A stretch of 64,000 nucleotides of DNA from Candidatus Poribacteria bacterium. Lineage in GTDB: Bacteria; Poribacteria; WGA-4E; WGA-3G. Each line of letters starts with the position of its first letter. Position 1 is the stretch's first letter. Location: NCBI GenBank assembly GCA_026702755.1, contig JAPPBX010000061.1, positions 1 through 64,000 of the forward strand, written 5' to 3'. This document shows positions 19,388-56,449 of this stretch, one piece after another. The notes beneath the pieces were generated by a model, which did no database searches, was not told the DNA's origin, and saw nothing but the letters and a program-made list of their open reading frames with translations. Position numbers and translations under genes: made by a program.

Positions 19388-19450
19388 TATTTACCACAAA
19401 TAAAAACTGGACATCCTTTTCGCCGTGAGCAGGATTTTATCAGATTTTCG

Positions 19451-20734
19451 TCATTCATCCAATAAAGAAAACTTCTCATTTTCCGTGCGCTTCTCTTCGG
19501 ATTGATCGTCAGCACGATGCTTTTTCAACTTCCGTTGCAAGGTCCTTACGCTTATCCCCAACATCTCCGAGGCTTTTTTCCGACTCCCGTCAAGCCGCGC
19601 CAATGTGGTACGGATGAACGATCCTTCCATCGCCTCAAGCGTCGTGTCGAAAGGAAAACTTATCTCCTGTTCATTTTCAGATGTAAGTAGTTCTTTAAGG
19701 GAATTCATGGGGCGTTCCTGACACATCCGAATCTCCTCGGGTAGATGCTCTGGTAAAAGAACCCCCTCCTTGACAGCGTAACACGCCCTTTGAATAGCAC
19801 TTGCCAACTCCCGGACATTCCCGGGCCAAGCGTAACTTTCAAGGAGAGCCAACGTACTCGGTGCTATCTGTGGAACTTCCGAGTCATAGGACAAGCGATA
19901 TTTCTTAAGAAAGTGTGTCACTAAATCTTCAATATCTTCTCGTCTTTCCGCCAACGTCGGTAGAGAAATAGATGCCATATTCAACCGATAATAGAGGTCT
20001 TCACGAAAAAAGCCATCTTTAACGGCTTGTGTAAGATCTCGGTTGGTAGCCGCCACGATTCGGACATCCACCGCGATCGGTTTCTCGCCACCGACGCGTT
20101 CAATCTCACCCGCCTCAATCGCCCTTAACAACTTCGATTGCATAGCAAATGGCATCTCCCCGATTTCATCAAGGAACAGTGTCCCCTTGTCTGCCCTTTC
20201 AAACTTACCAATATGACGTGTATCCGCACTCGTGAACGCGCCTTTCTCGTGTCCGAACAGTTCACTTTCCAATAAGTCTGCCGGCATCGCTGCACAATTG
20301 ACAGGAACCATCTTTCCCGACTTGCCACTGTTTTTGTGTAAGGCACGCGCGACCAACTCTTTACCGGTCCCGGTCCTGCCGAAAATCAGGATCCTCAGCG
20401 GCGTAGCCGCAAAATTCTCAATGCGCTGCAGAACCTCAAAAATTTGGGGACTCCTCCCGATGATCTCTCTGTAGTCCCCAGACAAACTATCTCTGGCGGA
20501 CGTAACTTGAGAAACTGTCTCCTCTATAACTGCAGATACACTATTTCTCCGTTGTGGAACCAGTACATCGGCATCATCCCCGTGGATTATCTTTAAGATT
20601 GGATCGCTTGTAAGAGGCGAGGTCTGCGTACCTTGATTGGCCGCAATAGAGACCTTGTATCCCATCCCTTCAAGATCTTCTTTTACCTCTTTCGCTGTAT
20701 CAGGTACATTACTTACAATAACAATGTGTTTCAC
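19451..20734 (-). CDS. NtrC-type sigma-54-dependent transcriptional activator with a degenerate receiver-like N-terminus
   Basis: 427-aa activator. Residues 1-60 resemble a response-regulator start ([20 protein letters not shown]) but are short and lack a clear phospho-Asp site. The AAA+ domain starts around 90: Walker A GRTGTGKE 119-126, the sigma-54-contacting loop GAFTSA 165-170 (consensus GAFTGA), the acidic Walker [10 protein letters not shown] around 187-195, and EDLYYRLN with an Arg finger region. A Fis-type helix-turn-helix lies near the C-terminus ([20 protein letters not shown]). It hydrolyses ATP to open sigma-54 promoters. No histidine kinase is adjacent. The likely target operon, with promoter and operators, lies immediately downstream. 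Confidence 0.9.
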
Positions 20735-52734: not shown

Positions 52735-53274
52735 ATGCAAAAATCACCTCACCCAACCGAAAGGAACACTAAAAAAATAATTCTTGGCATTGACCCGGGC
52801 ATCGCAAATACTGGATACGGGGTGGTTGAATCTCACGCGAACCAACTTACCCCGCGCGACTTTGGAAACATCAGGACAAGCCCGGAAACAGCGTCAGAGG
52901 TGCGACTAAAACAAATTTACGATGCCGTAACCCATCTGATTGCAAAGTTCGCCGTTGAGAATATAGTACTTGAGGATATTTTCTTCAGCAAAAACGTAAG
53001 CAGCGCATTCGCCGTAGGTGAAGTCAAAGGGATCGTCAAACTTGCAGCCGCGAATGCGGACTGTCCCATTGCCTTGTATACACCAACGCAGGTCAAACAA
53101 GCGATTGTCGGTTACGGGAGAGCCACGAAATCTCAGATGCAAAAGATGGCACAGGCACTCCTTCAACTCAAGGAACCGCCTCGTCCCGATCACGCAGCAG
53201 ATGCCCTCGCGCTCGCACTTTGTCATGCCCGTTCTTATAAAGTTCTTGAACTCCAAAAAAAGTATACACAGTAG
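52735..53274 (+). CDS. ruvC: Holliday junction resolvase RuvC
   Basis: 179-aa endonuclease that cuts four-way DNA junctions in recombinational repair. Catalytic acidic residues are in ILGIDPGIANTGYGV (first Asp), VLEDIFFSKN (Glu) and PDHAADALALALCHA (last Asp pair). The length and order match RuvC. The start follows yebC by about 150 bp. It is followed closely by ruvA (32 bp), so the two are co-transcribed. Confidence 0.94.
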   Translation: MQKSPHPTERNTKKIILGIDPGIANTGYGVVESHANQLTPRDFGNIRTSPETASEVRLKQIYDAVTHLIAKFAVENIVLEDIFFSKNVSSAFAVGEVKGIVKLAAANADCPIALYTPTQVKQAIVGYGRATKSQMQKMAQALLQLKEPPRPDHAADALALALCHARSYKVLELQKKYTQ

Positions 53275-53306
53275 CGCAGCGGATCTCTGTTTAAAGGAAC
53301 GTTAGG

Positions 53307-53903
53307 ATGATCTCTTATATCAAAGGCATTATCGTCCACAAAGAGACAAAACAGGTTATTGTAGATGTAAACGGCATCGGATATGCCATTGATGTACCAC
53401 CGAGAGTTATAACGGATTTACCACCCATAGGCGATACCGTTACCTTCTATACATACTACAACCAAACTCGAGAAAATAAAATTACCCTCTACGGGTTCAC
53501 CTCCAGAGATGCCTTGAGAGTTTTTGAATTGGCACTTACCGTTACCGGTGTCGGGCCCGCACTTGCACAAAACATCGTTGCGAGACTTTCCCCCACACAA
53601 TTCCAGCGCGCCGTTCAGCGTGGAGATGCAACCACCCTCATGCGTGTCCCACGGTTAACAAAAGACATCGCCCAAGTCATCATCACTAAACTGAAAAAGA
53701 ATATTATGAAAATGCAACTCGAAGGTGAGGCTGAACTCGGAGAGACGGGATCCCTAAATGTAGAAGTGATTAAAATGCTCGTCAATCTCGGCGCATCGGA
53801 ACTCGAAGCCGAACAAGCCGTTGAAAAGGCACAGAAAGTACTTGGTGATTCTGCACAGCGAGAAAATTTAGTTGCGCAGGCACTCCGCTATATCCGAAAT
53901 TAG
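53307..53903 (+). CDS. ruvA: Holliday junction DNA helicase subunit RuvA
   Basis: 198-aa tetrameric protein that binds four-way junctions and loads RuvB. The OB-fold start reads ISYIKGIIVHKETKQVIVDV; two helix-hairpin-helix motifs follow (TVTGVGPALAQNIVARLS and RVPRLTKDIAQVIITKL), and the C-terminal domain III binds RuvB (EVIKMLVNLGASELEAEQAV). It is normal length. An IS4-family element sits between it and ruvB. Confidence 0.93.
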   Translation: MISYIKGIIVHKETKQVIVDVNGIGYAIDVPPRVITDLPPIGDTVTFYTYYNQTRENKITLYGFTSRDALRVFELALTVTGVGPALAQNIVARLSPTQFQRAVQRGDATTLMRVPRLTKDIAQVIITKLKKNIMKMQLEGEAELGETGSLNVEVIKMLVNLGASELEAEQAVEKAQKVLGDSAQRENLVAQALRYIRN

Positions 53904-54002
53904 TTTGAAAAAGTTTTCAGTTAATAGTTGTCAGTTTGCCTCGCAGTGAGAGTAATAAGAGATGTCGTGGCGGCCACAAGTGCTCTCTTAACTGATGACT
54001 TG

Positions 54003-54011
54003 TAACTATTA
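54003..54011 (+). repeat. 9-bp target-site duplication, left copy
   Basis: TAACTATTA at 54003-54011 is repeated exactly at 55410-55418 on the far side of the insertion sequence, which is a 9-bp duplication typical of IS4-group elements. Confidence 0.8.
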
Positions 54012-55409
54012 CTAAAGTTTGGACAATGTTGTAAAGTTATGCTGCCTTGTCCAAAGGCAGGTGTGTATCCTCTTGAACACTCACCTTAATATCCTGCGAG
54101 TTTGTTTTTTCATTGAACTTAGCGAAAAATGACGACACCGCTATTTGCGATCGAAGATAAGCCACCCGCAAGCCTTGTGTGAGTTTTCTCGGACGATACC
54201 AATGAATGCCGAGATGTTGACAGACGTTCTGAACACTGATAGTTTTCTGTGTAGCATTCGGCAGTGTGAATATCAACTTCGTTAGACTCGCAGCGACAAA
54301 ACTTAGCTGCACAAATCGATTGATACTTTTTCGAGATTTCAGCCGATAGGCATCAAATCCGAAGTGCTGTTTGACATCTCGAAAAGCTGTTTCTATGAGC
54401 CACCTCTTGCGATAGTATGTCGCAATCTGAGGTATCTCAAGCGTCAAATCTGTTGTAAAGACGCAGAAATACCGATACGGTTTTGATGCCTTCGGACGCT
54501 TACGAATAATGACGAGTCGAACATTCGCATCACACATCTTCGTCCGGACGACCTTTGAGGCAATCGAATACCTTTGACCGTCTATATCTGTGTCCTTATA
54601 TCGGAGTCGGCGAATATCGAGACGGTCGCCATATTTTCTCGGTCGCCCGCGTTGACGGCGTTTCGTCGGTTTCGGTAAACGATAGAACACGGCATTAGAT
54701 TTCGCACGACATAAGATATGATGTCCGAAACTCAATGCCATTGTAAAAACTTTTCGCCGTGCGAAGCCACGGTCAAAGATGATAAGTCCCGGAGGTATCT
54801 TTGAACAGATACGTTTCAACACCGCCTGACTTTTATCGCGAATCGACTGGGGCAGAATGAGTTTCACCCAGACGGGGAATAGATGCCACTGTGTCGCTGT
54901 CTGGCAAAGTAGACCTAACGCCCCAAACTCGTGTCCGTAATGAAACTTCGATTGATTCACGCGACGCTTTTGATAACTGAAGTTGCGGAAAAAATGCAAT
55001 CCCCATTGTGCTATGCCTGTCTTCAGTGCCTTGGTCTCATCATAGACATAAACCCAATCGGTAAAATAGTGTTGGATGCGTCTGATGAGAACGCCAGCGA
55101 CGGCATCGGCGTTCCATTTCCCCCGGGAAAGAAACTTCGGAAATGACCAATACTGCGTCTCTGACCCACTACATTGATAAAGGTCTGTCAGTGTCCCATT
55201 GCCTCTATTGGCGATGAAGCCAAAGATAAAGGCTTGAAAAAGAGCAAAGTTTTGTTGATTGAATAAATGACGAAAATCCGATAGAATACTTTCTAAGCAG
55301 AGAAGGAGGTTCATTTTTACGTTCCTTTCAAAACAAGCGTATGTTTATGAAAGGATACCTCTTTTTCTGCTTTCGCGCATCTTAATTTTTAAAATTGTCC
55401 AAACTATAG
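54012..55409. mobile_element. IS4-family insertion sequence between ruvA and ruvB
   Basis: 1398-bp element. The terminal inverted repeats are CTAAAGTTTGGACAAT (54012-54027) and its complement with one change at 55394-55409. It carries one transposase gene on the minus strand and is flanked by the 9-bp direct repeat TAACTATTA. It looks complete, with an intact transposase frame and both ends present, so it could be recent and active. It separates ruvA from ruvB. Confidence 0.88.
54037..55314 (-). CDS. IS4-family DDE transposase
   Basis: 425-aa transposase filling the insertion sequence. The DDE residues appear as VYVYDETKALKTG (first Asp), LIIFDRGFARRKV (second Asp) and the Y-x2-R-x3-E-x6-K signature YRKRWLIETAFRDVKQHFGF (Glu). 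A basic segment (TKRRQRGRPRKYGDR) lies in the insertion region. The frame is intact, so the element may still move. It starts just inside the right-hand inverted repeat. Confidence 0.9.
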   Translation of the reverse strand: MNLLLCLESILSDFRHLFNQQNFALFQAFIFGFIANRGNGTLTDLYQCSGSETQYWSFPKFLSRGKWNADAVAGVLIRRIQHYFTDWVYVYDETKALKTGIAQWGLHFFRNFSYQKRRVNQSKFHYGHEFGALGLLCQTATQWHLFPVWVKLILPQSIRDKSQAVLKRICSKIPPGLIIFDRGFARRKVFTMALSFGHHILCRAKSNAVFYRLPKPTKRRQRGRPRKYGDRLDIRRLRYKDTDIDGQRYSIASKVVRTKMCDANVRLVIIRKRPKASKPYRYFCVFTTDLTLEIPQIATYYRKRWLIETAFRDVKQHFGFDAYRLKSRKSINRFVQLSFVAASLTKLIFTLPNATQKTISVQNVCQHLGIHWYRPRKLTQGLRVAYLRSQIAVSSFFAKFNEKTNSQDIKVSVQEDTHLPLDKAA

Positions 55410-55418
55410 TAACTATTA
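55410..55418 (+). repeat. 9-bp target-site duplication, right copy
   Basis: Second TAACTATTA, 14 bp before the ruvB start codon. See the left copy at 54003. Confidence 0.8.
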
Positions 55419-55432
55419 TAGGACGAAACAAA

Positions 55433-56449
55433 ATGGACCACCACGAAATACCAGATTTCTCTGAGATGCAACATGAAGATGATGACTTTGGCTATAGCCT
55501 TCGTCCGGAGACACTGAGCGAATTTATCGGACAGGAACAAGCCAAAGAACAACTCCGCATTCACATTGAAGCTGCCAAAAAGCGTGGCGATGCACTGGAA
55601 CACGTTCTACTCGTCAGTCCACCCGGGCTTGGGAAGACGACGCTTGCAAAAATTATCTCCAATGAAATTCAGAGTAACTTTAAACAAGCCATCGGGCCCG
55701 TCATGGAACGCCTTGACCTCGCCTCAACCTTGACAAATCTTGAGCGGACCGACATTCTCTTTATTGATGAAATCCACCAGATGAAAGGGCATGTGCAAGA
55801 ATCGCTCTACCCTGCGATGGAAGACTATAAACTCGACTTAACGCTTGGTCAAGGACCCACATCAGATGTTGTCCAACTTCAACTCAAACCCTTTACGCTT
55901 GTCGGCGCGACGACACGTGAAGGATTGCTTGCCGGTCCCTTTCGAGATCGATTCGGTATCCGCATCCACCTCGACTATTACGAAGCAGAAGACATTCAAC
56001 AAGCAATTCGTATTAATAGCGCGAAACTCAGCATTGATATCGATGAAGCCGCAGAATACGCATTAGCCTGCCGTTCTCGCGGCACGATGCGAATCGCAAA
56101 TAAATTACTCGCCAACGTCAGAGACTATGCCCAAGTCAAAGGCAGCGGCACACTCTCACTTGAAATCGCAGAGGAAGCACTCGAATTCTTTCGCATTGAT
56201 GAACGCGGACTAAATACACAAGATTATGCCTACTTTCAGACGCTTATTGAAAAATTCAAAGGACGCGCAGGGCTTAAAGCACTCGCTGTCGCCCTCAGTG
56301 AAGATGAACGCACTATCGCTGAGGTTTACGAACCTTACTATATCAAAGAGGGGTTTTTGATGCTAACACCGGGCGGACGTGTCGCTACAGATGCTGCTTA
56401 TGCCTACTTTGACTATCCTGTAGGCACACAAACATCGCTGTTCCATTAG
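55433..56449 (+). CDS. ruvB: Holliday junction DNA helicase subunit RuvB
   Basis: 338-aa AAA+ motor that drives branch migration with RuvA. The N-terminus has DFGYSLRPETLSEFIGQEQA and Walker A VSPPGLGKTTLAK at about 63-75. Walker B is ILFIDEIHQMKG at about 116-127. Sensor and Arg finger segments are VGATTREGLLAGPFRDRFGI, and the winged-helix C-terminus ends LTPGGRVATDAAY. It is normal length. The IS element directly upstream separates it from ruvA, so it must rely on readthrough or a promoter at the IS edge. Confidence 0.95.
   Translation: MDHHEIPDFSEMQHEDDDFGYSLRPETLSEFIGQEQAKEQLRIHIEAAKKRGDALEHVLLVSPPGLGKTTLAKIISNEIQSNFKQAIGPVMERLDLASTLTNLERTDILFIDEIHQMKGHVQESLYPAMEDYKLDLTLGQGPTSDVVQLQLKPFTLVGATTREGLLAGPFRDRFGIRIHLDYYEAEDIQQAIRINSAKLSIDIDEAAEYALACRSRGTMRIANKLLANVRDYAQVKGSGTLSLEIAEEALEFFRIDERGLNTQDYAYFQTLIEKFKGRAGLKALAVALSEDERTIAEVYEPYYIKEGFLMLTPGGRVATDAAYAYFDYPVGTQTSLFH

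Follow-up and report, generated by a model that had tools for sequence, protein, structure and literature searches.

An IS4/IS701-type insertion sequence between ruvA and ruvB of a Candidatus Poribacteria bacterium, at the tip of a dispersed palindromic repeat

De Palmenaer et al. 2008 (PMC2266710) characterize the IS4 family by a complete Y(2)R(3)E(6)K motif and a D(60-110)D(100-150)E catalytic spacing, and give target duplications of 7-13 bp, about one helix turn, for the IS4 subgroups. In their account, nearly all IS701 elements duplicate 4 bp, and the tyrosine of the YREK motif is absent in 23 of 27 elements and kept in 4, the incomplete motif being a tendency of IS701 with members that keep the tyrosine and not a strict definition. 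A different kind of target choice is described by Tobes and Pareja (PMC1525189) for REP-specific insertion sequences (such as ISPsy8, ISPpu9/10 and ISRm22), which sit inside repeated intergenic palindromes and, in type 1, have 100% of their copies at one REP position. The element analysed here also lies inside a repeated intergenic palindrome. We call it an IS4/IS701-superfamily element because NCBIfam places its transposase in IS701, while its YREK motif and its duplications follow IS4.

The insertion between ruvA and ruvB

The element separates ruvA from ruvB in the window, by which we mean the whole 64,000-nucleotide stretch of DNA that was analysed. The features of the locus are as follows.

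53307..53903, plus strand: ruvA, intact (open, family model above cut-off)
53911..54011, no strand: imperfect palindrome, one member of a dispersed repeat family with heptamer-like arms and core GTTTGCCTCGCAGTGAGAGT
54003..54011, plus strand: target duplication copy 1, TAACTATTA, 9 bp
54012..55409, minus strand: insertion sequence, IS4/IS701-type, 1,398 bp (delimited by ends, duplication and full-length alignments of relatives' copies)
54012..54027, plus strand: end downstream of the transposase, CTAAAGTTTGGACAAT
54037..55314, minus strand: DDE transposase, 425 aa, single intact ORF, with D92, D181 and E308 (D92 and D181 assigned by motif, not structure) and Y301-R304-E308-K315
55394..55409, minus strand: end upstream of the transposase, CTATAGTTTGGACAAT on the minus strand (plus-strand letters ATTGTCCAAACTATAG)
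55410..55418, plus strand: target duplication copy 2, TAACTATTA, 9 bp
55420..55423, plus strand: AGGA, the likely ribosome-binding site of ruvB, 9 nt upstream of the ATG, undisturbed by the insertion
55433..56449, plus strand: ruvB, intact (open, family model above cut-off)

The preliminary description had reported, for 53920-55418, an intact element with 16-bp ends, an intact transposase and a 9-bp duplication, lying in the arm of an intergenic palindrome and splitting ruvA from ruvB; its range extends from close to the palindrome's start through the second duplication copy. All of these points are confirmed from the sequence. In addition, the ends are inverted repeats with 15 of 16 positions matching, and the palindrome is itself repeated in the genome. 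The flanking duplication is perfect, and full-length copies of the element in relatives align across the identical span, 1-1398.

Among the 37 relatives with a ruvB match, the ruv loci were readable in 29 (23 of the genus and six more distant), and the ruvA-ruvB spacer is free of an insertion sequence in every one of these 29. The spacer is 22-179 nt long in the 23 genus relatives. In the closest relative, G001 (ruvA 97% and ruvB 96% identical), it measures 67 nt and is without the palindrome; judged by eye, the palindrome replaces about 43 nt of the G001-type spacer rather than being cleanly inserted into it. Arms of the repeat family were also seen by eye in the ruvA-ruvB spacer of 7 of the 23 genus relatives (G005, G006, G008, G010, G014, G015 and G020), where the repeat arrangements differ among the spacers (L143, L145-L148, L150 and L152), and the nearest relatives are without the repeat.

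Target sites and the palindromic repeat

Insertion sites were compared over a set of 29 distinct two-ended sites with ends 1,300-1,450 bp apart in nine genomes, the window's site included (eight in G009, seven in G017, six in G005, three in G006, and one each in G000, G002, G004, G013 and G033). Single-ended fragments at contig ends and internally deleted copies (e.g., L050 and L085) were left out of the set, and each site was counted once. Perfect duplications of 7-11 bp flank the element at 24 of the 29 sites, with lengths of 7 bp (n=1), 8 bp (n=6), 9 bp (n=8), 10 bp (n=8) and 11 bp (n=1). The five sites without one are L038, L067, L069, L072 and L084; four of them show no duplication, and L067 shows a 4-bp match, but its right flank is identical to that of copy L063. 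The duplications start with TA in 22 of 24 cases and end with TA in 20 of 24, the preceding base is C in 14/24 and the following base G in 11/24, and the A+T content is 89% in the duplications compared with 62% in the flanks. A 30th site, outside the 29-site counts, has the 9-bp duplication TAACTCATA. An ORF of at least 100 aa is crossed at 7 of the 29 sites and none at the other 22, and the noncoding share of the TA-N3-7-TA sites in genome samples of relatives is 25-27%, with ORF rules that differ slightly between the two counts. Insertions are clearly enriched outside ORFs, whether through target choice or through selection. Overall, the element's targets are AT-rich (C)TA-N-TA(G) sites that lie mostly outside ORFs, and its duplications span 7-11 bp.

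In the window, the insertion point is the outermost tip of the palindrome's right arm and not its axis. The exact arms of the palindrome, TAATAGTT and AACTATTA, are 8 nt long (53922-53929 and 54004-54011), and longer arms of 17-18 nt have 78-82% complementarity; folded as RNA, the palindrome outperforms the majority of its shuffles (z of -2.33), and 4 of 200 shuffles are equally good. BLAST places the family at no fewer than 59 positions in its own genome at E<=10 (itself included) and at least 42 at E<=0.001, lower bounds from the 40 of 173 first-look candidates that were scored. The 20-base core with at most one mismatch has 38 matches in the own genome compared with 0 for a reversed control, and 30 of the 36 genus genomes (own included) contain it, compared with 1 of 24 outside the genus; the family is nearly confined to the genus. 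Thirty own-genome copies, placed by a simple ORF rule, lie between codirectional genes in 22 cases, between convergent genes in 4, between divergent genes in 3 and inside an ORF in 1. Among copies L004-L032 the core GTTTGCCTCGCAGTGAGAGT is well conserved and the arms are variable, and copy L017 adjoins the tmRNA gene. Rfam gives no match in window positions 53700-55600 at E<=5, and a known RNA was rejected as an identity for the repeat, as the only above-gathering Rfam match across the loci of ten other copies is the neighbouring tmRNA gene. A REP/RAYT system is likewise not supported: the own genome has four Y1-transposase genes above cut-off and one below, and one of the five loci matches the repeat, over 23 bp. 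For further study, this dispersed family may be more rewarding than the insertion sequence.

A single element in a repeat arm hinted at targeting, and the preliminary description had pointed out that insertion sequences of other bacteria are known to target repeat palindromes. On this reading the transposase would recognize the repeated palindrome in the manner of REP-specific elements, which would make the ruvA-ruvB insertion a targeted event. The other copies' targets point elsewhere. We searched the sites by BLAST with 29 own-genome copies of the palindrome as the search set, and took as background the noncoding TA-N3-7-TA sites in 400-kb samples of three relatives under a simple ORF mask, the insertion sites themselves coming from nine genomes. 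The palindrome family is found at 2 of the 29 sites (the ruvA-ruvB site and L083 in G017), close to the background of 4.6% (159 of 3,479; 67/1,181, 46/1,090 and 46/1,208 in the three relatives) and not clearly above it, and the fair count is 1 of 28 because the window was chosen for its palindrome. A heptamer-count test, which missed both palindrome sites and flagged L044 and L078 instead, was replaced by the BLAST test. Of the 28 other distinct sites, 27 lie outside the family, the kind of result that the preliminary description had itself named as refuting its idea. All copies of type 1 elements, by contrast, are reported at one REP position (PMC1525189), and the window's insertion sits at the outer tip. 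What speaks for targeting, apart from the precedents that the same source describes in other bacteria, is that L083 used the same 9 bp of the palindrome family in the opposite orientation, between two other codirectional ORFs, so that two insertions in different genomes and at different loci share an identical target in either orientation. The palindrome tip is a usable site and may have a mild preference; recognition of the palindrome as such is already largely refuted and, in our view, highly improbable.

A broader form of the idea is a general preference for dispersed-repeat tips, whether of palindromes or of MITE-like repeats, since such tips carry the CTA/TAG half-sites that the element favours. 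Several insertion-site flanks (L066, L073, L081 and L084) share a MITE-like repeat whose tip is TATAGTAAAACC. This family is present, at its TATAGT tip, at 7 of the 29 sites compared with 7.1-8.4% of the background, which is a lead only, because the family was picked after the sites had been seen, and 4 of the 7 sites supplied the search set. Among the 21 insertion sites that belong to the three sampled relatives, those with at least three matches to dispersed repeats of any kind show a slight excess (5 of 21 compared with 14.7%, 13.2% and 16.3%), but with at least one match, the unselected test, there is no clear excess (7 of 21 compared with 26.5%, 30% and 31.3% in samples of 600 noncoding TA..TA sites from each genome). 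This test misses diverged copies, because L083, a true palindrome-family site, scored zero. The tip motif count, 4/29 against a background of 5.6-6.8%, also weighs against a general preference. We regard such a preference as somewhat unlikely; it is compatible with an ordinary insertion in everything except the role of the palindrome as a bystander.

We therefore favour, with a probability of about 0.9, a single ordinary insertion at an AT-rich TA-N5-TA site with the palindrome tip incidental, a reading drawn largely from copies in relatives, as the own genome holds one full copy only. On this explanation, a DDE element of the IS4/IS701 superfamily, so far found in Candidatus Poribacteria, would have entered the ruvA-ruvB spacer once, probably by cut-and-paste, as its DDE/YREK family suggests. 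A dispersed palindromic repeat that was already there would by chance have offered the target at its outer tip, staggered strand transfer would have duplicated 9 bp, and the palindrome would be a bystander rather than a recognition signal. The earlier impression gained from one element is corrected by the 29 sites, which point to AT-rich, mostly intergenic insertion.

ruvB after the insertion

The ruvB gene is the sole match in its own genome at E<=1e-60, and ruvC, too, matches its family above cut-off. The dN/dS of ruvB is 0.049-0.077 between the own genome and three relatives, compared with 0.056-0.077 among the relatives, and the changes unique to the own genome comprise 3 nonsynonymous and 21 synonymous codons. 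The gene may, as the preliminary description holds, now depend on readthrough or a new promoter. Judged from these substitutions, ruvB is under purifying selection and shows no decay. The dN/dS values argue against a long decay, although expression could still have been lost recently.

The continued selection on ruvB, together with its start codon and likely ribosome-binding site, both untouched by the insertion (AGGA is also present in the ruvA-ruvB spacers of the nearest relatives G001, G007 and G017), is what could be expected if the element had been co-opted to supply a ruvB promoter and were kept by selection, an effect that concerns the fate of the insertion rather than its origin and is compatible with the other explanations. 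One weak plus-strand promoter-like site is indeed found within the element, at 55259-55287. However, the plus-strand site nearest ruvB stops 122 bp short of the element's end, the transposase is antisense to ruvA and reads away from ruvB, and the region 53200-55600 has 7 promoter-like sites compared with a shuffle mean of 3.8 (sd 2.1). A recent insertion would leave ruvB undecayed anyway. The promoter scans give nothing convincing, a new ruvB promoter at the element's end is not supported, and we consider co-option unlikely.

Family character and distribution of the element

The transposase scores 197.5 bits with the NCBIfam model IS701_3 (transpos_IS701_3, NF049999; cut-off 170) over residues 3-407 of 425, and the four matching NCBIfam IS4 models all stay below their cut-offs (best 69.7 bits, cut-off 115). 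The complete YREK motif, YRKRWLIETAFRDVK, lies at residues 301-315, and the catalytic spacing, D(88)D(126)E, is within the IS4 range published in PMC2266710. Measured against the descriptions there, the element agrees with IS4 in its complete YREK motif, its duplications of about one helix turn and its single-ORF transposase with DDE spacing, but its transposase is not closest to the IS4 subgroups, as judged by NCBIfam models. With IS701 it shares a transposase above the curated cut-off, whereas the 4-bp duplications and mostly absent tyrosine of that group stand against 7-11 bp and a complete YREK motif here. With the IS4 subgroups of the same source (IS10, IS50, ISPepr1 and IS4Sa) the Poribacteria element shares the complete YREK motif, the DDE spacing and duplications near one helix turn, its own being 7-11 bp (mostly 8-10); IS10 and ISPepr1 have ends that start with CT, as does the Poribacteria element, and ISPepr1 also has AT-rich targets. 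The range of 7-11 bp fits no single IS4 subgroup tabulated there, and among curated models an IS4 model is not the best match. The label "IS4-family" in the preliminary description is defensible on the YREK motif and the duplication length, but not on the best curated model, which is IS701_3.

These elements of Poribacteria may form a group that combines an IS701-type transposase with IS4-type behaviour, namely a complete YREK motif, variable duplications of 7-11 bp and symmetric (C)TA-N-TA(G) targets, with half-sites that resemble the CTA found at the element's tips. We put this forward tentatively, with the odds slightly against it. If true, IS701 elements of this branch would not obey the 4-bp rule, and dispersed-repeat tips would be where the element lands on account of the half-sites present in them. 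For the classification of insertion sequences, the mixed IS4/IS701 character matters in a small way.

The host, Candidatus Poribacteria, is a sponge-symbiont bacterium. Its assembly holds one full copy of the element and one 109-bp remnant (36 of 36 candidates scored); the remnant, at window positions 19403-19511, corresponds to the side of the element where the transposase starts, with 72% identity. In named genomes, close relatives of the transposase occupy 55 distinct loci, and all 55 are in Poribacteria. A match to the element is present in 35 of the 60 genomes compared and, within the genus, in 29 of 36 (own included in both), and the copy numbers across genomes are lower bounds, with at most six candidates per genome scored. 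Three plasmid records contain relatives of the transposase with 24.2-26.2% identity, two of them annotated as IS701, and an imperfect inverted pair is present in the Priestia plasmid copy. A search of solved structures with the transposase returned six chains, all Tn5 transposase or inhibitor, at non-significant E-values of 0.057-0.54. Literature searches on Poribacteria with insertion sequence and transposase, or with palindromic, returned nothing on this element, judged by the titles listed, and searches with words from the repeat arms or the element's ends returned only papers unrelated by title.

Another genus of the same family contains a more distant element with ends CAATACCTTCGCCAA (genome G079, copies L302-L313). 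Against the IS701_3 model, part of which is covered, its copies score about 94 bits, well under the cut-off. Duplications of 6-8 bp were seen by eye at 8 of its 12 copies and none at the other 4. Compared with L303, nine of the 11 other copies are 99.66-100% identical and two are 93% identical, and from this similarity the element looks recently active.
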